The position numbers were made by a program, and so were the translations under genes. From a virus, in the IMG/VR virus record IMGVR_UViG_3300025168_000564, positions 1 through 26,387 of that record: a DNA stretch of 26,387 nt; one strand, 5' to 3'. Below are positions 8,611 through 16,013 of this stretch, piece after piece. The notes beneath the pieces are model-generated. The model searched no databases. It saw only the letters and a list, made by a program, of their open reading frames with translations, and was not told the DNA's origin. Position 1 is the stretch's first letter, and each line of letters begins with the position of its first letter.

Positions 8611-8776
8611 CTCCTAGTCTCGATCGGCTTACAATCTGCCAAATTCGCTGTTTAGTCAACTTATATTTCTCTCCGAGTGAAGCTAGGGTGGTGTTTCCTT
8701 TAGAATATTCCTCGTAGATTTTCCGATAGAGTCGACGATTCTTTTCTTTCTTTTTGTCACTAATACCTTTACTCAT
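8585..8776 (-). CDS. Sigma-70 region 4-like HTH protein, 63 aa
   Basis: This small basic protein begins MSKGISDKKKEKNRRLYRK. A helix-turn-helix follows: YEEYSKGNTTLASLGEKYK, then LTKQRIWQIVSRSR, a typical region 4-like recognition helix. The start at 8776 is set by the ATGA overlap with the DNA polymerase stop; a longer frame would run back into polymerase. It overlaps the next HTH gene by 26 bases. It may regulate transcription or redirect host RNA polymerase. The pairing with a second HTH protein suggests either a duplication or a two-component regulator. The function is inferred from the motif. Confidence 0.68.
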   Translation of the reverse strand: MSKGISDKKKEKNRRLYRKIYEEYSKGNTTLASLGEKYKLTKQRIWQIVSRSRLGGGDYFYRD

Positions 8777-10635
8777 TCTGCAGAGTCTCCCCATGTTTTC
8801 CCATACTCTGCGTCTACTATTAGTGGGACTGACAGATCCACACAGTTTGCCATTTTTTCCATAATAAATTCACCTTCTTTTTCCGATTCGACCGAGTAGT
8901 CAAGCTCGTCATGGATTTGTAAATGAGGAACATATCCCTCTTTCCAAAGGTCTAACATCGCAATTTTCGTCATGTCTGCTGCTGAACCTTGAATTAGCCT
9001 ATTCAGTGCTTTATAGGTATAGGCGCGTCGAACATTCCCGTAGAGATCTCGTGCTTCCGATTCTTCTAATGGTAATCCATCCCCATGGACAGGTTCCCAT
9101 CGGTCAAATCTGCACTTTCTCCCTCCGAGTGTTTTTATATGTCCTCGCTCTAAGGCCACCCGAGCACACTGATCTTGTAACGCTCTAATGAACGGTACTC
9201 TCTGGTGGTACGTCTCGAGTAGAGCACGAGCTTCGTCTTCCTCTACCCCAAGTTCTTTAATAAGTTTCGTATGACCCATGCCATAGGTCAGTCCGAGGTT
9301 GATATTTTTTGCTTGTTTCCTAGGGATATTAGCCATATCGGCTACGATCTGGTGGAAATCCGCTCCTTCTTCGGAGTAAGCCCTAACCGCGTCTTCTGCC
9401 CCCCGTAAGCCCATCTTATACGCGTAATGCACCGTTAATCTAGGTTCCTGCTGAGAATAGTCGAAAGCCCCCCAGATCGCGTTTTCTTCCGGTATAAAGA
9501 GTGACCGAATTAACTTGCCTAATTCTGGGTCTCTCGCTGGAACTTGTTGTAGATTCGGGTTCGAGTAGCTAAATCGACCGCTTACAGTGCCTCCCGAGTC
9601 GTTTCTAAGAGGGTGAGCTTCTGCGTGTATCCGACCGTTAACTTGGTGGCCTAGTATCATTTTCTCGATAAACGAGGTCCGAGCTTTGTTCAGCTTCCGA
9701 GCTCTTACAATCATTTTAGGTAGAGGGTGGTCATGAGCCTCTAGCCAAGGTGCTTGGAAACTTGCCATTCCTTTCTCGGTGCGTGGATACCAAATATCGT
9801 TAGCATCAAACGCTTTCTGAATCGAGGCGTTAGCCCAAAGCTCTACCGTAGTGCCGTACTTTCTCTTAAACTCGACCAGTATCTGTTGCTCTTTCTTCGA
9901 CAGCTCTTCAGCTACTTGTTCTGCTCGGTTAGTATCAATCCGAACACCCTTCCATCGCATTGCAATCAGTAATGGAATCAAGTCACATTCTAGTTTAAAA
10001 ATCTTCTCAAGCCCTTCTTCTTGTATCCGAGGGTAGAGCTGGTTCCACAATTGTAGAGTAAGAACTGCGTCTTGTTCTGCGTAAGGTCCAACGTATTTCG
10101 CAGGTAATGCGTAGAGTCCAGACTTAGCGTTAACTCCCCAAGATTTAGCGGCGGCTTCTAGGAGAGACTCGTCTTTCTCCGAGGCACAGTAATCTTTGCC
10201 TAGCGCGTTAAGCGAGTAGCCTCGTCGGTGCTCATCTAATAAAGGAGCTGCGAACATCGTATCGTAGATCTGACACGTTATTTCAATCCCCTCACGCTTC
10301 AACCAACCTACGTCGTAGAGCGCATTGTGAAAGATTAAAGACCCTTTGTGGTTTGTTAGTGTGCGTTTTAACCAACGCATTACTATCTCTTCCTCTAAGT
10401 TCCCCCCGCCTTCATGCCTTATCGGTAAGTATCCGCTCCATGAAGCAGAGGCAATAGCAATACCCACTATGTGGCCATCGCCTGTCGCCCACCCAGGACC
10501 GCGTTGCCGCAAAGAAGGGTCGTGCGTTTCTAGGTCGACAGCTAATAGCTCGTTTTCATCGAACCGAGGCAGAACATCGGGGGCTACCCAACTACTCTCT
10601 GGTGTTATTAGTGGTATCTGTGTCTGGATCATCAT
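8773..10635 (-). CDS. polA: DNA polymerase, family A, with 3'-5' exonuclease
   Basis: This 620-residue replicative polymerase has a proofreading domain with DLE (D34, E36), HNALYD (D108) and YAEQDA (Y185, D189). The polymerase motifs are A, FDYSQQEPR (D392); B, R439-K443-L447-Y451G; and C, HDE at 575-577. All catalytic residues are present. It lacks the 5'-3' exonuclease domain, as expected for phage PolA. The residue matching E. coli Phe762 is Leu (447). It overlaps the preceding gene by 44 bases and starts ATGATG with GAG seven bases upstream. Its setting with primase, helicases, SSB-like protein and nucleotide enzymes makes it the main phage replicase. The symbol is by family only. Confidence 0.95.
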   Translation of the reverse strand: MMIQTQIPLITPESSWVAPDVLPRFDENELLAVDLETHDPSLRQRGPGWATGDGHIVGIAIASASWSGYLPIRHEGGGNLEEEIVMRWLKRTLTNHKGSLIFHNALYDVGWLKREGIEITCQIYDTMFAAPLLDEHRRGYSLNALGKDYCASEKDESLLEAAAKSWGVNAKSGLYALPAKYVGPYAEQDAVLTLQLWNQLYPRIQEEGLEKIFKLECDLIPLLIAMRWKGVRIDTNRAEQVAEELSKKEQQILVEFKRKYGTTVELWANASIQKAFDANDIWYPRTEKGMASFQAPWLEAHDHPLPKMIVRARKLNKARTSFIEKMILGHQVNGRIHAEAHPLRNDSGGTVSGRFSYSNPNLQQVPARDPELGKLIRSLFIPEENAIWGAFDYSQQEPRLTVHYAYKMGLRGAEDAVRAYSEEGADFHQIVADMANIPRKQAKNINLGLTYGMGHTKLIKELGVEEDEARALLETYHQRVPFIRALQDQCARVALERGHIKTLGGRKCRFDRWEPVHGDGLPLEESEARDLYGNVRRAYTYKALNRLIQGSAADMTKIAMLDLWKEGYVPHLQIHDELDYSVESEKEGEFIMEKMANCVDLSVPLIVDAEYGKTWGDSAE

Positions 10636-10912
10636 ATCTAATCTCGTGTTCTACTAGAAGTAAGTATCGCCGTAGGTCTCCGATATCGTCTAAGAGACCG
10701 TCTTCCCCGTTATACTTACCCCCTGCCTCAAAAATATCGTAATTACAAACTTTGCTCTGTTGCTCAATGCGATCAAACTTACGAGCGAGCATCATAAACG
10801 CTCCTGTCCCGCCTCTACGCTTCCACGAATCCCCGTAAGATTTCTCAGACTCGATTAAACTATGTAGATCGTTTTGTGCGATCTCTTTTATGTCTCCCCA
10901 TTTACTAGCCAT
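10592..10912 (-). CDS. Nmad1/DUF1599-like protein, 106 aa
   Basis: This is an all-helical protein with the run SYGDSWKRRGGTGAFMMLAR, then KFDRIEQQ and a C-terminal GEDGLLDDIGDLRRYLLLVE. I recognise this as resembling the DUF1599 family, named nucleotide modification associated domain 1, and more distantly the MazG-like helical nucleotide pyrophosphohydrolases, with acidic and basic residues (E, D, D, R, K) spaced for metal and phosphate binding. The start at 10912 is set by the ATGGCTAG overlap with the ThyA-family gene; the frame extending to 11029 is rejected as it lies inside that gene. The place between the ThyA-family gene and polymerase supports nucleotide metabolism. The exact substrate is unknown. 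Confidence 0.6.
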   Translation of the reverse strand: MASKWGDIKEIAQNDLHSLIESEKSYGDSWKRRGGTGAFMMLARKFDRIEQQSKVCNYDIFEAGGKYNGEDGLLDDIGDLRRYLLLVEHEIRYDDPDTDTTNNTRE

Positions 10913-11963
10913 TTCTTTTAACCCCCAGTTTTTGCTCCCAGTTTCTTTTTCGCTTAGTGATCCACGTAGTACACGCCATTCTCCAATCTTCTGCTTGAAT
11001 ATTTTCAATTTGTTTATAACAGTTTTCATAATCTCTCATCTTGTGGTAAGTAAATGCTTTAATCATAGGTCTAAGCACCAATGGGAAAATGCGGTTTTTA
11101 AAACTGCTCCAACTAATAGACTCACAGTGGCTCAACTCAAGTTGGGTTTCTTTGCCAGTGGGTAACACGTTTAGAAAATACTTACAGTCTTGCGTAAACG
11201 TGGTGTACTCATCCACAACAGGTATTAAATCTTTTGGATAGTGCATAGGGACTGCTTGAGAAAACACATCAAAATCTATATTCTTAATCGTTTTCCACTG
11301 CTCTGTGTCGTAAATGTGAAAGCTATCGCTAATCTGATAATACTTACCCATCGGTAGATCGAGAGACGCTGCTATGTATTCTTGGAGAACTGACATATGT
11401 ACTACGTTAGCTCCATAGGCTCCCCAGATCATATCGTTCGAGCGGTTACACACGGTCATCTGTAACTCGTAGTCTCTAACCTTGAAGTAGATATTCGTAT
11501 TGCAAGGAATGTCAATACTTGGGCTATTCAAATCATGAACAGCATCCCACATCTGTAAAACTACTCGACGCGAGTCAGGGTCTTGCTTTAACATTTCTAT
11601 TATGGTAGGCAGCTGATCATGATCAAACTGTTTTCTCCACCGATATCCGTAGGCTCCGTTTAATAATTCTCCATTGTCTGAAAAATTAGCCATACCTGCG
11701 TTAAAGTGAGTGAGCTGTCTAAGGTTGTTAGACCCCGCCATCATCCAGATGGCTTCTACTAGATGAAAAAATGGATTAGCGTCTCGAGTTTCTTCTAATA
11801 GCACTCTCTCCCATGGTTTTTTATACACCGTAGTAACTGGGTCTACACATTCTAGCGTATCCCCGTTTCTGCTTTTCTGTCTTCGGAAGTTTGTCTGTCC
11901 TTTAAACAGATCTACTCCTTTAACGAAAGCGTCGTTAATATTGTTGGCTTTAATCACCCTCAT
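10905..11963 (-). CDS. ThyA-family enzyme: thymidylate synthase or dUMP hydroxymethylase
   Basis: This 352-residue ThyA-fold protein uses a pyrimidine monophosphate and methylene-tetrahydrofolate. It keeps the catalytic Cys (PCN, C154), DPDSRR (R132, R133), NRSND (R174, S175, D177), an Asn in GANVVH (N186) and HIY (H216, Y218), plus E70. By hand alignment the two Trp residues of the E. coli IWDEW segment are Met91 and Phe94, and one residue is inserted between D177 and N186. PCH of the usual enzyme is PCN. Loss of that Trp is compatible with water attack on the methylene intermediate, as in hydroxymethylases, so 5-hydroxymethyl-dUMP is a possible product. The retained Asn favours dUMP over dCMP. 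It overlaps both neighbours. Confidence 0.8.
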   Translation of the reverse strand: MRVIKANNINDAFVKGVDLFKGQTNFRRQKSRNGDTLECVDPVTTVYKKPWERVLLEETRDANPFFHLVEAIWMMAGSNNLRQLTHFNAGMANFSDNGELLNGAYGYRWRKQFDHDQLPTIIEMLKQDPDSRRVVLQMWDAVHDLNSPSIDIPCNTNIYFKVRDYELQMTVCNRSNDMIWGAYGANVVHMSVLQEYIAASLDLPMGKYYQISDSFHIYDTEQWKTIKNIDFDVFSQAVPMHYPKDLIPVVDEYTTFTQDCKYFLNVLPTGKETQLELSHCESISWSSFKNRIFPLVLRPMIKAFTYHKMRDYENCYKQIENIQAEDWRMACTTWITKRKRNWEQKLGVKRNG

Positions 11964-12192
11964 ATAGACTCTCCGTGTTGTTGATTAAGACCTGTTCTAT
12001 CTGTAGACGACTAAGTTGAGCTTCTCTGCGTTCATGGACTTGTTGCTGAGAAATCCATGTAATTGCATCTCTCCATGTACTAGGGATGCTGTGATCTTTC
12101 ATACATTGTTGTAAGAACTGCCCGTATGTGACTAAAATCCACTTCACTTTGAGTTCGGAAGTTTCCATAATGTGTTGTTTTAACTTCCCCAT
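11950..12192 (-). CDS. Hypothetical phage protein, 80 aa
   Basis: This is a helical, Gln-rich protein of no recognised family. It contains KVKWILVTYGQFLQQCMKDH, a central WRDAITWISQQQVHERREAQ, and a final helix with RLQIEQVLINN. The start at 12192 follows CAGGAGAAAGCAA and overlaps the preceding gene's end by 13 bases; its own stop overlaps the ThyA-family start by 14 bases. Conserved placement between two candidate base-modification genes makes it a candidate partner of them, but only by position. There is no metal or nucleotide motif. Confidence 0.65.
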   Translation of the reverse strand: MGKLKQHIMETSELKVKWILVTYGQFLQQCMKDHSIPSTWRDAITWISQQQVHERREAQLSRLQIEQVLINNTESLYEGD

Positions 12193-13109
12193 TTGCTTTC
12201 TCCTGTTTTTAAATCCTCGATTAAAGGACGGTGTCTTTTTGAGTAATCGTATGTGCTTCGAGTGCGGCCTTCTTTTCTTAAAATACGGGTGTACTTGTCG
12301 TACTCACACAAACCCCCCTCTACTTCCCTCATCTCAAAAGGCATTCGGTAATGTTTGTCGTTTGGTGATATTCCAGGAAGGATTAGTCTTTCTTTACAAA
12401 TTTCGTAGAGCAACCTCATCTCTAAGTCCCAGTCATAGCTGCGCTTACAGAAACCTAGTGGGCGACCTGTTAGTCTGTTTAGTCCTCTCATGGCTCCGGG
12501 TCCAGGATTACCCCAAGTACAGATGTCGGTGGCCTCATTTAACACATAGGTGTGTCGTAGATCCGTAACTAATTCATAAGCAACGAAGGGGCCAATGTAT
12601 GGGTACTGTAAGAGAAACTGCCATGCTTCTTGTAGCGTAGTCATCTTTTCTAAAGAGGCGATTAAATTCTCTCGCTCGACCCAGATATGAGAAATACACT
12701 CAGCTACTCCTGTCACTTTATTCATTCGGTTGGGAGTTTTTACTATGTAAGCCCCTGTTACCCACTTGGGCTGTTTAATTACCTCTTCAATAGCTTTCTC
12801 TCTGTTCCATTCTAAATGTAGATTATTCTCAAGCAGTGTTCGACCTGTTTCTATCAGGTTAAAGAATCTAAAGATAACCGTGGCCATTATTACTTCAGGC
12901 TCGGCTGACAAAGGTTGTCTTATATGAGCCGCAAACCAACGGGTAGTCCTGTCATCTTCTCGAAAAACTTGGCAAAACTTGAACTCTTTCAGAATTGGAT
13001 CTTCTGTCCACGGTGGGTCTTGTTTTAACTCTTCTTTTTTAATCCGAATACGCTCTCTTTCTTCTATCCAGTAGAGGTAGCGTTCGATTTCTTCTTTAAT
13101 AAATTTCAT
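12180..13109 (-). CDS. 5-hmdU DNA kinase helical-domain (HMUDK_hel) type protein
   Basis: This 309-residue protein resembles the helical domain of 5-hydroxymethyl-deoxyuridine DNA kinases, a family first described as alpha-glutamyl/putrescinyl thymine pyrophosphorylase with a helix-hairpin-helix glycosylase-like fold. The signatures are IRIKKEELKQDPPWTEDPIL, KFCQVFREDDRTTRW, YIGPFVAYELVTDL, GPGAMRGLNRLTGRP and the C-terminal CEYDKYTRILRKEGR. These proteins act on 5-hmdU in DNA as part of thymine hypermodification. The P-loop kinase domain found in some members is absent, so the activity of this stand-alone form is uncertain. The start at 13109 forms an ATGA overlap with the methyltransferase stop; a longer frame from TTG is rejected. 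Confidence 0.72.
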   Translation of the reverse strand: MKFIKEEIERYLYWIEERERIRIKKEELKQDPPWTEDPILKEFKFCQVFREDDRTTRWFAAHIRQPLSAEPEVIMATVIFRFFNLIETGRTLLENNLHLEWNREKAIEEVIKQPKWVTGAYIVKTPNRMNKVTGVAECISHIWVERENLIASLEKMTTLQEAWQFLLQYPYIGPFVAYELVTDLRHTYVLNEATDICTWGNPGPGAMRGLNRLTGRPLGFCKRSYDWDLEMRLLYEICKERLILPGISPNDKHYRMPFEMREVEGGLCEYDKYTRILRKEGRTRSTYDYSKRHRPLIEDLKTGESKWGS

Positions 13110-13969
13110 ATTCGTTTTCTCAAAATCCAAGCACAATTGTTAGACACCTCTGGGAAGAATGTTGCGGCTACTACTCTAAGGAACTGTTTTCCGTAGCGTT
13201 CTTGCAGTAACTCAAACTGGTCTTCCATTAACCGCCACTCCCCGTCCTCGTTGTCTTTATGCATAGCTGCTTTTAACTTAGGCATCTGGGCAAACGTCCC
13301 AACAACAGATTGTAGATACCATTCTCGAGACCCTCGGGTTAGCTCTTTCTTTAGTTCTTCAAACCCCCATTCATACACGTGGTCTTCCGGTAGCTTGTTA
13401 TTCGAGCCATCGTGATTAGGAGTAGAGACATAAATCAACCCTCCTGGCTTCAGCACACGGTTGGCATCGTCAAGCCATGCTTGGATAAACTCGCTGCCCA
13501 TGTGCTCAATAACTTCGGTAGTCCAGAAAAAATCAATCGAGTTATCCGGTAGATTAAATACAGGGTTAACGGTGAGGTCTTGTATGTTGATCCTTCCGTT
13601 AAAATTAGCGAACCAAGTAGAATCCTCAACTAGTCCAGTGGGGCTGCTATATCCTTGTTTCTCATTCAGACAAGCAGGGTCTATATCTACTCCTGTGTAG
13701 GAATTGATAATGTCAGATTTCTTAACGGTGTAGGCTTTATACAGGTTTCTAAGCACCCAGATCTCTCCGCATCCTGCTTCTAGTACATCAATCGGTCGAC
13801 CTAGGAGTTTCGCTTCCTCAATACACAGCGAGGATATTTTGTCGTAACGAGTCATGTGAGTAATCTCGTCCGGTCGCCAATTGCCTAGCATGTTCCCACT
13901 AGCAATATCCATGCGAGTGTTCTTGCTGTTGTTTGCGTTTTCTTTAAGAATCTTTCTTATAGAGGCCAT
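13106..13969 (-). CDS. Class I SAM-dependent methyltransferase
   Basis: This 287-residue protein has the class I Rossmann signature: motif I VLEAGCG near residue 62, then YTGVDIDP, NSIDFFWTTEVIEHM, and RVLKPGGLIYVSTPNHDG. It belongs to the Methyltransf_11-like group. No DPPY or PC motif typical of DNA adenine or cytosine methylases is visible, so the substrate could be a base or modified base, a protein, or a small molecule. The start at 13969 is set by the TAATG junction with GGA seven bases upstream. The setting immediately before the HMUDK-type gene makes methylation of a modified base or its precursor a reasonable hypothesis, unproven. Confidence 0.8.
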   Translation of the reverse strand: MASIRKILKENANNSKNTRMDIASGNMLGNWRPDEITHMTRYDKISSLCIEEAKLLGRPIDVLEAGCGEIWVLRNLYKAYTVKKSDIINSYTGVDIDPACLNEKQGYSSPTGLVEDSTWFANFNGRINIQDLTVNPVFNLPDNSIDFFWTTEVIEHMGSEFIQAWLDDANRVLKPGGLIYVSTPNHDGSNNKLPEDHVYEWGFEELKKELTRGSREWYLQSVVGTFAQMPKLKAAMHKDNEDGEWRLMEDQFELLQERYGKQFLRVVAATFFPEVSNNCAWILRKRI

Positions 13970-14460
13970 TATATTTTCCACCATGTTGGTTTGCGGCTAG
14001 GGTCTTTTTCCCATTTAGCAAAATGTTGTTTTTCATTCATTAGATAATTTTGATAAGATGAGACAGTATCCTCGGATTTATACTCGTCAGGCATCGCTAA
14101 TGCGAAATCGTATGGTTGTTCTAAAACAACTCCAGGTTTAAATGGCATTTGTTTTAACGGCTCGGTGAGCCTAGTAGATGCATGGGTTTTTCCGTAACGA
14201 TGTGTGTACTCGTTACACAATGCAATGAAGTGGTCGTATAACCACTGGTAGTTTTCTCGAGCTAATCGAACCCAAATACTACAGGGGTGATTAAGATGTG
14301 CGGTTTTATATAGTTCGTGTTCGTCTGCATATTCTGCAGAATATTCTCGCCAAGCCGTAGACAACATCTGGGCAGACTCGAGTACCATTTTTACGCAGTG
14401 TTTATCACATTGTTCTTGTGCACTTTTTACGGGGCACAGATCAGTTACGAATATATTCAT
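13969..14460 (-). CDS. Conserved phage protein with CDKHCVK motif, 163 aa
   Basis: This protein opens with MNIFVTDLCPVKSAQEQCDK and continues HCVKMVLESAQMLSTAW, then LYKTAHLNHPCSIWVRLARE and LYDHFIALCNEYTHRYGK, ending DPSRKPTWWK. The family is common in marine phages and is sometimes annotated as a pyrimidine-dimer glycosylase-like protein. The C-terminal KPTWW and Lys-rich end are weakly like DenV, but the evidence is thin and I leave the function open. The conserved Cys, His and Asp residues could form a metal or catalytic site. The start at 14460 follows AGAAAGGAGAAATAA. It is the first gene after the 14485 promoter and heads the whole modification and polymerase operon. Confidence 0.7.
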   Translation of the reverse strand: MNIFVTDLCPVKSAQEQCDKHCVKMVLESAQMLSTAWREYSAEYADEHELYKTAHLNHPCSIWVRLARENYQWLYDHFIALCNEYTHRYGKTHASTRLTEPLKQMPFKPGVVLEQPYDFALAMPDEYKSEDTVSSYQNYLMNEKQHFAKWEKDPSRKPTWWKI

Positions 14461-14484
14461 TTATTTCTCCTTTCTAAGTAGTTT

Positions 14485-14514
14485 ATTCTACTTTACTTTT
14501 TATTTGAAAGTAAA
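14485..14514 (-). promoter_or_regulatory. Sigma-70-like promoter with -35 dyad, TTTACT-N18-TAGAAT
   Basis: TTTACT at 14514-14509 and TAGAAT at 14490-14485 are separated by 18 bases. A perfect 9-bp inverted repeat CTTTACTTT/AAAGTAAAG covers the -35 and spacer, which could be a repressor or activator site. It lies between the UvrD-like gene and the 14460 gene. Confidence 0.7.
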
Positions 14515-14519
14515 GGAGT

Positions 14520-16013
14520 TTATAGTGGGTAATACTTTTGAGTTTGTGGTTCAATTAAAAACAAGTTTTCTTTTGCACGAGTTACCCCTACATAAAACAC
14601 CCGCGATTCGTCGTCAGGATTTTTCTGATATGACTTAAATACCCGAGAAGAGATATCAGTCAGCAAAATCACATTAGTTGCCTCTCCTCCTTTCGCTGCA
14701 TGAATAGTCGATATCCGAATACGGGGTTCTTTTGTGATCTTTTCTCCTCGTCTAAGCATGGCGCGTATGTAACTGCGCTCTTTTACCGAGATCCCCTCGA
14801 ACACATCGTACCAATATCCGTCTTTAAGGATAGGAATGTGTTTCTGTAGTTGTTTTAACGAAATCAAACTATCAAAGTCGATAACCGCGAGGGAGTTAGG
14901 TACGCGAACCTTTAGATAATTTAAGACATTGGTAACTTCCGTCATGGCAATAAGACCACCGCTGCGCAGCGTTTCCCAAGACTTAACTGCACGAACCTTT
15001 TTCTCTGAAATACTTGTTCTATTTTTGGTTTTAAAGAACCAACCTTCTGATCTACAGTGGTCTTCTACATCTTGTAGTAAATAATTAGTGCGAGCTAACA
15101 CTAGCCAGTCCCCCTGTTCCATGTTAATAGACTCAACTGCGGTTTCCCACCTAACTAATCCTTTCTCTTTTCTAGGGTTCCATACTTTATGCACTCGTGA
15201 GCTTACGTTTCCGATACAACGCTCGGCAAGGTTATGAATAGATTTAGGGATTCTGTAGGACTGTTTAAGGATCATCGCATCTTTAGAATTACGAATCAAA
15301 TAATCTACGTCTGCCCCCGCCCAACGATAGATAGCTTGGTCGTCGTCTCCTGCGATATAAATTCGATCAGCTGACTCACACAGCTTCCTAACTACTGCCC
15401 ACTGCAAAGGAGAAAGGTCTTGCGCTTCGTCTACAAACATCACATCTAAACGAGGGGCTACCCCCCGCTCTAAAAACTGCTGGAGCATATCGGTGTAATC
15501 TAAAAGTAATTTGTCTTCTTTGAAAAGTTTAAGCCCCCTAGCGAATCGTTCTAGCTCAAACCACCCCACTACATCGTCTACGTCCTGCCACTGGTTCTCT
15601 AGTGTCGTCTGTCTCATACGGGCTAGGTTTTCTATAAACAAAAGCCTGTCGTCCTTAGATATCCCTGATATGTGCCCTTCTTCAGAACCGAAAGAACCTG
15701 ACAGTCGTAGATTAAGCTTCTCATTCAAGTCACTGAGGTCTGCTGCACCTAGTACGCTTTCTTTAGTCAGCCCTAGCTGTAAAAAACATAACGAGTGTAG
15801 CGTCCTAAAATATGGTAATTGATTCTTATTAATTTCAAACCGAGCAATAGCCCTGCTCTTGCCTTCTTGCACAGCTTGTTTAGTAAATGTAAAAAATCCA
15901 ATGCGCTCGGGCTCAGTCCCCCTTTCAAGTTCCTCTTCCAGAAGTCCTAGCAATGTACTGGTTTTGCCGGTCCCTGGCGGTCCTAATATAATCTGAGCCT
16001 TACTGCTTAACAC
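14520..16013 (-). CDS. UvrD/Rep-like SF1 helicase
   Basis: This is a superfamily 1 helicase of 497 residues. Its motifs, in order, are Walker A GPPGTGKT (11-18), motif Ia FFTFTKQAV near 40, Walker B DEAQD (195-199), motif III GDDDQAIYRWAGAD (222 on), the QSYR motif near 250, RISTIHAAKGGEA and the final VFYVGVTRAKENLFLI. It is shorter than bacterial UvrD (about 720 residues), so the accessory 1B/2B domains are small, as in compact phage helicases. It probably unwinds DNA at the phage replication fork or in repair. The start is GTG at 16013, overlapping the primase stop as TAGTG, with a weak ribosome binding site, so it depends on coupled re-initiation after primase. Confidence 0.9.
   Translation of the reverse strand: MLSSKAQIILGPPGTGKTSTLLGLLEEELERGTEPERIGFFTFTKQAVQEGKSRAIARFEINKNQLPYFRTLHSLCFLQLGLTKESVLGAADLSDLNEKLNLRLSGSFGSEEGHISGISKDDRLLFIENLARMRQTTLENQWQDVDDVVGWFELERFARGLKLFKEDKLLLDYTDMLQQFLERGVAPRLDVMFVDEAQDLSPLQWAVVRKLCESADRIYIAGDDDQAIYRWAGADVDYLIRNSKDAMILKQSYRIPKSIHNLAERCIGNVSSRVHKVWNPRKEKGLVRWETAVESINMEQGDWLVLARTNYLLQDVEDHCRSEGWFFKTKNRTSISEKKVRAVKSWETLRSGGLIAMTEVTNVLNYLKVRVPNSLAVIDFDSLISLKQLQKHIPILKDGYWYDVFEGISVKERSYIRAMLRRGEKITKEPRIRISTIHAAKGGEATNVILLTDISSRVFKSYQKNPDDESRVFYVGVTRAKENLFLIEPQTQKYYPL

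Follow-up and report, generated by a model that had tools for sequence, protein, structure and literature searches.

The virus record IMGVR_UViG_3300025168_000564 (26,387 bp, from IMG/VR; analysed over its whole length and referred to below as the window) carries on its minus strand a compact group of genes that an earlier note, made from the sequence alone, had described as a candidate thymidine hypermodification cluster starting from the hydroxymethylation of deoxyuridine monophosphate (dUMP). The genes named there are indeed present, and the ThyA-family enzyme among them bears the corresponding signature (D151/C154/N155/N186). Our own reading, to which we assign a probability of about 0.5, is that the locus is a kinase-free thymidine hypermodification cassette, in which the 5-hydroxymethyl group of 5-hydroxymethyl-2′-deoxyuridine (5-hmdU) would be capped directly instead of being activated by phosphorylation.

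Gene content and conservation of the cassette

The genes all point in the same direction and are tightly packed, touching or overlapping. In 5′ to 3′ order, with the upstream flanking helicase given last, they are:

13969–14460, minus strand: pyrimidine-dimer-glycosylase-like "CDKHC" protein (Pfam PF03013 Pyr_excise, E = 1.5e-8); a variable neighbour, outside the core
13106–13969, minus strand: S-adenosylmethionine (SAM)-dependent class I methyltransferase (Pfam Methyltransf_23, E = 1.4e-11); the proposed capping enzyme
12180–13109, minus strand: PF18723 (HMUDK_hel / aGPT-Pplase1) protein (Pfam E = 2.8e-44), with a proposed role in 5-hmdU DNA handling
11950–12192, minus strand: 80-residue protein without a Pfam match
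10905–11963, minus strand: ThyA-family enzyme, by sequence a dUMP hydroxymethylase (Pfam PF00303 Thymidylat_synt, E = 5.2e-24; phrog_5131 thymidylate synthase, E = 2.6e-106)
10592–10912, minus strand: Nmad1-like protein of 106 residues, homologous to Pam3_54 and Goe26_01480, with no Pfam match of its own
8773–10635, minus strand: family A DNA polymerase (PolA) with 3′–5′ exonuclease (Pfam DNA_pol_A, E = 5.6e-59; DNA_pol_A_exo1, E = 7.3e-15); the downstream anchor of the cassette
14520–16013, minus strand: UvrD-type helicase flanking the cassette (Pfam UvrD-helicase, E = 1.9e-28)

The helicase and PolA flank the block, and the core together with PolA occupies 8773–13969. With start codons at 13969 for the methyltransferase and 13109 for the PF18723 protein, the stop of the former and the start of the latter probably overlap by 4 nucleotides. 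The earlier note had seen one overlapping operon directly before the DNA polymerase, and had suggested profile searches for PF18723-type and ThyA-type domains. Both domains were recovered by Pfam, and the tight co-directional arrangement with PolA next in line is borne out, but the PF03013 gene is missing from many relatives that keep the remaining cassette, and we rejected it as a core member because of this variable presence. The PF03013 protein resembles T4 endonuclease V, whose nucleophile is Thr2. It has Asn at position 2 instead, and may for this reason not be a working pyrimidine-dimer glycosylase. The 80-residue protein, listed earlier as an unknown member of the cluster, is present as described, but it is divergent (about 27–62% identity where found) and went undetected in many relatives.

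Relatives were collected by scans of IMG/VR, with lists ranked by similarity. In these loci the order methyltransferase, PF18723 protein, (80-residue protein), hydroxymethylase, Nmad1-like protein, PolA is almost invariant. The methyltransferase gene adjoins the PF18723 gene in 107 of 119 distinct relatives (identical sequences removed), and in most of them the two overlap or nearly touch. Being kept in more than 100 distinct sequences, this order is far beyond chance. Two complete genomes, DSL-LC04 and 023Pt_psg01, have gp34, primase, UvrD helicase and PolA in common with the window (36–51% identity), but all five cassette genes (methyltransferase, PF18723, 80-residue protein, hydroxymethylase, Nmad1-like) are absent from them; in DSL-LC04, PolA directly follows the helicase. 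The cassette is thus all-or-none across related complete genomes and behaves as a single unit that includes the methyltransferase.

ThyA-family enzyme, Nmad1-like protein and methyltransferase

We aligned the window enzyme with E. coli ThyA, T4 gp42 and phage enzymes, using an E. coli numbering anchor whose length and residues W80, C146 and N177 were verified. The key residues are Asp151 (codon from 11513), Cys154 (11504), Asn155 (11501) and Asn186, so that Asp stands in the place of the synthase Leu143, three positions ahead of the catalytic Cys, and Asn stands both in the place of His147 and at 177. An Asp three residues ahead of the catalytic Cys separates hydroxymethylases from thymidylate synthase, which has Leu there, and the determinant for deoxycytidine monophosphate (dCMP) is an Asp at the E. 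coli 177-equivalent site, Asp179 in T4 (PMC6400193). Since both the hydroxymethylase Asp and the uracil-specific Asn are present, the case that the enzyme is a dUMP hydroxymethylase is strong by sequence. The same signature is found in the enzymes of SPO1-like Goe26, YuA, PaMx11, Pam3 and RHph_TM26. Among PF18723-linked loci, the D/C/N residues occur in all 222 that are readable and the 177-equivalent Asn in 221 of 221 (97 distinct C-terminal sequences). In the PDB, the hydroxymethylase MilA matches best (3.7e-22), and thymidylate synthases come after it (3.6e-14).

For the downstream gene, the earlier note had proposed an Nmad1/DUF1599-like protein. The gene is present. Its open reading frame of 145 residues starts at 11029 and would overlap the ThyA gene by 125 nucleotides; this start was rejected in favour of the ATG at 10912 (106 residues), the likely start because homology begins there. 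The protein does not itself match PF07659 (Nmad1/DUF1599), a family that its homolog Goe26_01480 matches weakly (E = 0.02). It is 44% identical to Pam3_54 ("nucleotide modification") and 38% identical to Goe26_01480 of a Bacillus phage, with 55–89% identity among relatives. Goe26_01480 is in turn a homolog of SPO1 gp30 and so links the window protein to gp30, a replication gene located between hydroxymethylase and polymerase in SPO1. This observation, made on 10592–10912 of the window and 25963–26643 of locus L059, suggests that a role of Nmad1-like/gp30 proteins in 5-hmdU replication may be common to distant phages.

The methyltransferase does not have the hallmarks of a DNA amino-methyltransferase acting on N6 of adenine or N4 of cytosine: PF01555 matches at just E = 0.018 (15.4 bits against a cut-off of 26.7), the motif (D/N/S)PP(Y/F) was not found in the sequence, and EVIEHM stands where such enzymes carry (D/N/S)PPY. 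Its AlphaFold2 model (predicted local distance difference test score, pLDDT, 84) has as nearest PDB folds small-molecule methyltransferases and their relatives, namely SpnF, TleD and the natural-product enzymes AtmM, RebM and MitM. A PDB sequence search with this protein, and likewise one with the PF18723 protein, returned nothing useful.

Homologs of the methyltransferase in the phage collection are few, comprising Stenotrophomonas phage AXL3 (two records), PW916 and two uncultivated phages. No isolate in that collection was found to have the entire cassette. In AXL3 and ct3Et533 the homolog adjoins a ThyA-family gene, a TMK-like protein and a nucleoside triphosphate (NTP) pyrophosphohydrolase. 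With AXL3 as the anchor, a scan returned 80 loci, of which 72 have a ThyA-family gene nearby; all 72 are readable and carry the dCMP-hydroxymethylase signature (65 distinct C-terminal sequences). Thirty methyltransferase residues are invariant across the window-type and AXL3-type proteins. One methyltransferase family thus accompanies hydroxymethylases of both the dCMP and the dUMP type, a pattern that would be expected, without amounting to proof, if it targets the hydroxymethyl group that the two bases share. AXL3 DNA is resistant to 35 of the 37 restriction enzymes tried on it, and every one of these 35 has G/C in its recognition site (PMC7504290); this is consistent with a modified cytosine. 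PF18723 occurs in 1 of the 80 loci, and AXL3 was rejected as a PF18723 phage since the region fetched from it has none.

Missing kinase and transferase genes, and the PF18723 family

The known amino acid pathways rely on a 5-hmdU DNA kinase (PF18748) and an amino acid:DNA transferase (PF18724). We searched for the kinase with PF18748, AAA_33, four kinase sequences and a Walker-A pattern. PF18748 was found in none of 15 and none of a further 44 relative contigs. PF18724 was absent from 15 contigs and, by tblastn, from the roughly 6 kb around the cassette in 159 loci, in line with the earlier statement that no such transferase is seen. The controls YuA and PaMx11 were positive for both families, PaMx11 under the PF18748 cut-off. 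AAA_33 recognized the control phages and gave a single, sub-threshold match in the clade, to a 509-residue open reading frame of contig G042. In contigs read whole, the Walker-A matches were helicases, large proteins or chance, and none was a kinase. On these searches, a kinase hidden elsewhere in the genome was rejected. One relative, G014, is 61,618 bp long, and a 98-bp stretch is repeated exactly at its termini, two bases short of the end; it is therefore a circularly permuted genome that is complete or almost so. It has no kinase and no amino acid transferase, its sole Walker-A matches being the UvrD helicase and a 505-residue protein; for this terminally redundant genome the absence is no fragment artefact. 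The real anomaly is thus the lack of both kinase and transferase in the window and its relatives. As a side observation, G014 encodes a 2-oxoglutarate-Fe(II) oxygenase (PF13759, E = 4.3e-13; 13837–14562 of locus L026) in its structural module. Another large relative, G006 (IMGVR 3300037962_000140, 81.9 kb), has two diverged copies of the structural module, is probably a chimeric assembly, and was left out as a completeness case.

The anomaly pointed out previously was a different one, a kinase helical domain standing alone, and it does not hold. In YuA (gp14 and gp13, the latter matching PF18748), PaMx11 and Pam3, PF18723 is a protein of its own, with a P-loop kinase encoded separately next to it; it is also a separate protein in ViI and PhiW-14, with no P-loop domain detected in either protein. 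A lone copy is therefore normal, this being the state in all five known phages checked. The annotation of the M6-like phage SN1 likewise names the PF18723 protein aGPT-Pplase1, distinct from the kinase (PMC9476957).

The AlphaFold2 model of the window PF18723 protein (pLDDT 90.8) is all-helical. At a probability of at least 0.9, its sole PDB neighbours are PUGT (8z2n), the 5-phosphoryloxymethyl-2′-deoxyuridine (5-PmdU) glycinyltransferase gp46 of PaMx11, and the helix-hairpin-helix glycosylase MjOgg (3fhf). Both matches are weak (8z2n, probability 0.93, E 0.15; 3fhf, probability 0.90, E 0.49; query template modelling score about 0.4), and the apparent likeness to glycosylases and PUGT is one of fold only. 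An Asp codon at 12525–12527 falls near the catalytic Asp position of HhH-GPD glycosylases in an alignment by eye. Lone copies of the gene are also found on chromosomes of bacteria of the Candidate Phyla Radiation, including a complete Dojkabacteria chromosome, and of Alphaproteobacteria, and in a Woesearchaeota metagenome-assembled genome (loci L265, 6848–7786; L240, 6980–7915; L247; L264; L231); Pfam confirmed two of these loci (E = 4e-16 and 3.8e-51), and no hydroxymethylase, kinase or transferase was detected near these genes. In Microbacterium phage Pajaza (locus L037, 1798–4587), the ThyA-family gene that accompanies PF18723 has the dCMP-hydroxymethylase signature, and PF18723 is thus not bound to uracil in every phage.

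Some cassettes with PF18723 and hydroxymethylase have neither this methyltransferase nor a detected kinase, and carry substitute enzymes:

L218, L355 (6428–9472) and L356: glycosyltransferase-like protein and radical SAM/SPASM protein
L397 (6838–9180) and L412: FkbM methyltransferase, glycosyltransferase and YfbR nucleotidase
L219 (8139–11181): FkbM methyltransferase, acyl carrier protein, radical SAM protein and GT61 glycosyltransferase
L221 (7864–9782): PF18723 cassette with a glycosyltransferase-like protein and no kinase found nearby

The glycosyltransferase-like label of L218, L355 and L221 is a reading of the sequence, not a Pfam match. A cytidylyltransferase-isomerase fusion or an acyl carrier protein also occurs within the set L219, L221, L355 and L397. 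Sugar-decorated 5-hmdU is a possible product of these sister cassettes, and their transferases fit direct capping, since glycosyltransferases and FkbM methyltransferases would also use a hydroxyl acceptor. In a PF18723 tree with several weakly supported nodes, PaMx11, which has kinase and transferase, nests near kinase-free lineages, and for this reason the modules appear to have been swapped on a common PF18723 gene.

Proposed pathway, alternatives and known systems

In the pathway that we propose, the ThyA-family enzyme would make 5-hydroxymethyl-dUMP, which would be converted to the triphosphate, perhaps with help from the Nmad1-like protein, and the adjacent polymerase would insert 5-hmdU into DNA. 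Judging from the signature and gene content, 5-hmdU very probably replaces some of the thymine in the phage DNA and is then decorated. In the second step, the SAM methyltransferase would cap the 5-hydroxymethyl group, with the PF18723 protein as a putative DNA- or base-handling partner, and the simplest end product would be 5-methoxymethyl-2′-deoxyuridine. The kinase-free, methyltransferase-bearing gene set thereby supports, as a possibility, the earlier suggestion of a methylated or otherwise capped hydroxymethyluracil. In the amino acid pathways of M6 and ViI, the 5-hmdU hydroxyl is phosphorylated for displacement (summarised in PMC6449724). No kinase would be needed here, because the hydroxyl would serve as the nucleophile and not as the leaving group that it is in M6, ViI and PhiW-14. 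The cap may shield the phage DNA from host nucleases.

A wider claim joins two parts: that these phages make a base not described so far (5-methoxymethyl-2′-deoxyuridine or another directly capped 5-hmdU) without phosphorylation, and that PF18723 is a general 5-hmdU platform for swappable modules, be they kinase plus amino acid transferase, SAM methyltransferase or glycosyltransferase sets. We advance this joint claim tentatively, at somewhat less than even odds. A literature search of limited coverage turned up no methoxymethyl base in the DNA of phages, a negative that carries little weight.

Several observations weigh against direct capping by this cassette. A host kinase, or one without a P-loop, could still act on 5-hmdU. 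The top PDB neighbours of the methyltransferase mix C-, N- and O-methyltransferases and one cyclase, so that the class I fold leaves the acceptor unfixed. All but one of the 80 AXL3-type loci have the methyltransferase without PF18723, so the methyltransferase and the PF18723 protein need not cooperate, and the role of PF18723 may lie elsewhere, as the family is also found alone on bacterial chromosomes. Finally, the frequencies given above cover the near clade and not the PF18723 family as a whole, because the lists were ranked by similarity.

Four other explanations were considered. It is unlikely, though to be taken seriously, that 5-hmdU is made and the methyltransferase has some other target (RNA, a nucleotide side product or a protein), in which case the virion DNA would contain plain 5-hmdU as in SPO1 and the PF18723 protein would be a reader or repair-type protein. 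The identical order of hydroxymethylase, gp30 and polymerase in SPO1, the glycosylase-like fold and chromosomal occurrence of PF18723, and fold matches that do not fix the acceptor would all suit it. Against it, the methyltransferase family is linked to hydroxymethylases for two different bases and is gained or lost together with the cassette, and the lack of PF18723 in the 49-kb SPO1 region that was searched fits a PF18723 role beyond plain 5-hmdU.

We regard it as quite unlikely that the methyltransferase acts before replication, converting 5-hmdUMP (or the triphosphate) to 5-methoxymethyl-dUMP, with the polymerase inserting the finished nucleotide and PF18723 doing a separate job. AXL3-type phages combine methyltransferase, hydroxymethylase, TMK-like protein and NTP pyrophosphohydrolase without PF18723, and the methyltransferase fold resembles small-molecule enzymes. 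In the window clade, however, the methyltransferase is coupled to PF18723, overlapping it in most loci, and in M6-like phages the PF18723 family neighbours kinases and transferases that work at the DNA level.

It seems improbable that an ordinary M6/ViI-type pathway is at work, its 5-hmdU kinase and amino acid transferase being supplied by the host or having escaped recognition. PF18723, hydroxymethylase and Nmad genes are common to the window and these systems, and the position of PaMx11 in the PF18723 tree would agree with it, but both enzyme families went unmatched in the relatives, including the terminally redundant 61.6-kb genome, and the known M6-type clusters examined carry the kinase and transferase genes together. 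A plain thymidylate synthase in a cluster that merely raises the supply of deoxythymidine triphosphate, despite the thymidylate synthase label of this gene in PHROGs and public phage records, is ruled out by the active-site residues to the point of being very improbable, as Leu is replaced by Asp and His147 by Asn in every readable relative and the nearest solved structure is a hydroxymethylase.

If direct capping is correct, these phages would use a second chemical route to thymine hypermodification, with the hydroxyl as nucleophile instead of leaving group; new DNA bases would be predicted in uncultivated phages known from more than 100 metagenomic sequences; and the PF18723 family would be freed from its misleading "kinase domain" name. 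The presence of the same methyltransferase family in the cultivated, restriction-resistant AXL3 would provide a testable handle on an analogous cytosine base.

Known systems share parts of this arrangement. As in the window, T4 glucosyltransferase and a phage carbamoyltransferase are each paired with a hydroxymethylase as adjacent group transferases without a kinase, and the carbamoyltransferase caps 5-hydroxymethylcytosine (5hmC) directly (PMC8670742); by analogy, the glucose or carbamoyl that they place on the free hydroxyl of 5hmC would correspond to the proposed methyl group on uracil. AXL3-type loci have a homologous methyltransferase (25–28% identity) beside a ThyA-family hydroxymethylase, but differ in the dCMP signature, in the NTP pyrophosphohydrolase and TMK-like protein that are usually present, and in the absence of PF18723 from 79 of 80. 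SPO1 has a dUMP hydroxymethylase followed by gp30 (related to the Nmad1-like protein via Goe26) and PolA, whereas the 49-kb region gave no PF18723 match. Uncultivated HTVC023P-type pelagiphages, assigned to thymidine hypermodification in the main text of a 2022 report (PMC9599517), have the same two genes, annotated as thymidylate synthase and aG/PT-PPlase1, near a related PolA; unlike our reading, that main text treats the enzyme as a thymidylate synthase, does not contain the word methyltransferase and does not raise the missing kinase and transferase. Closest in kind are the M6/YuA, PaMx11 and Pam3 clusters, which share with the window the dUMP-hydroxymethylase signature, the PF18723 protein and the position upstream of PolA, as well as, in Pam3, an Nmad1-like gene. 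Theirs, however, is a kinase and an amino acid:DNA transferase, where the window clade has a class I methyltransferase instead, and it is these two defining genes, sought and not found, that set the window apart from the M6/ViI system. The system in the window is thus of a known type, as a variant that should differ in its chemistry.

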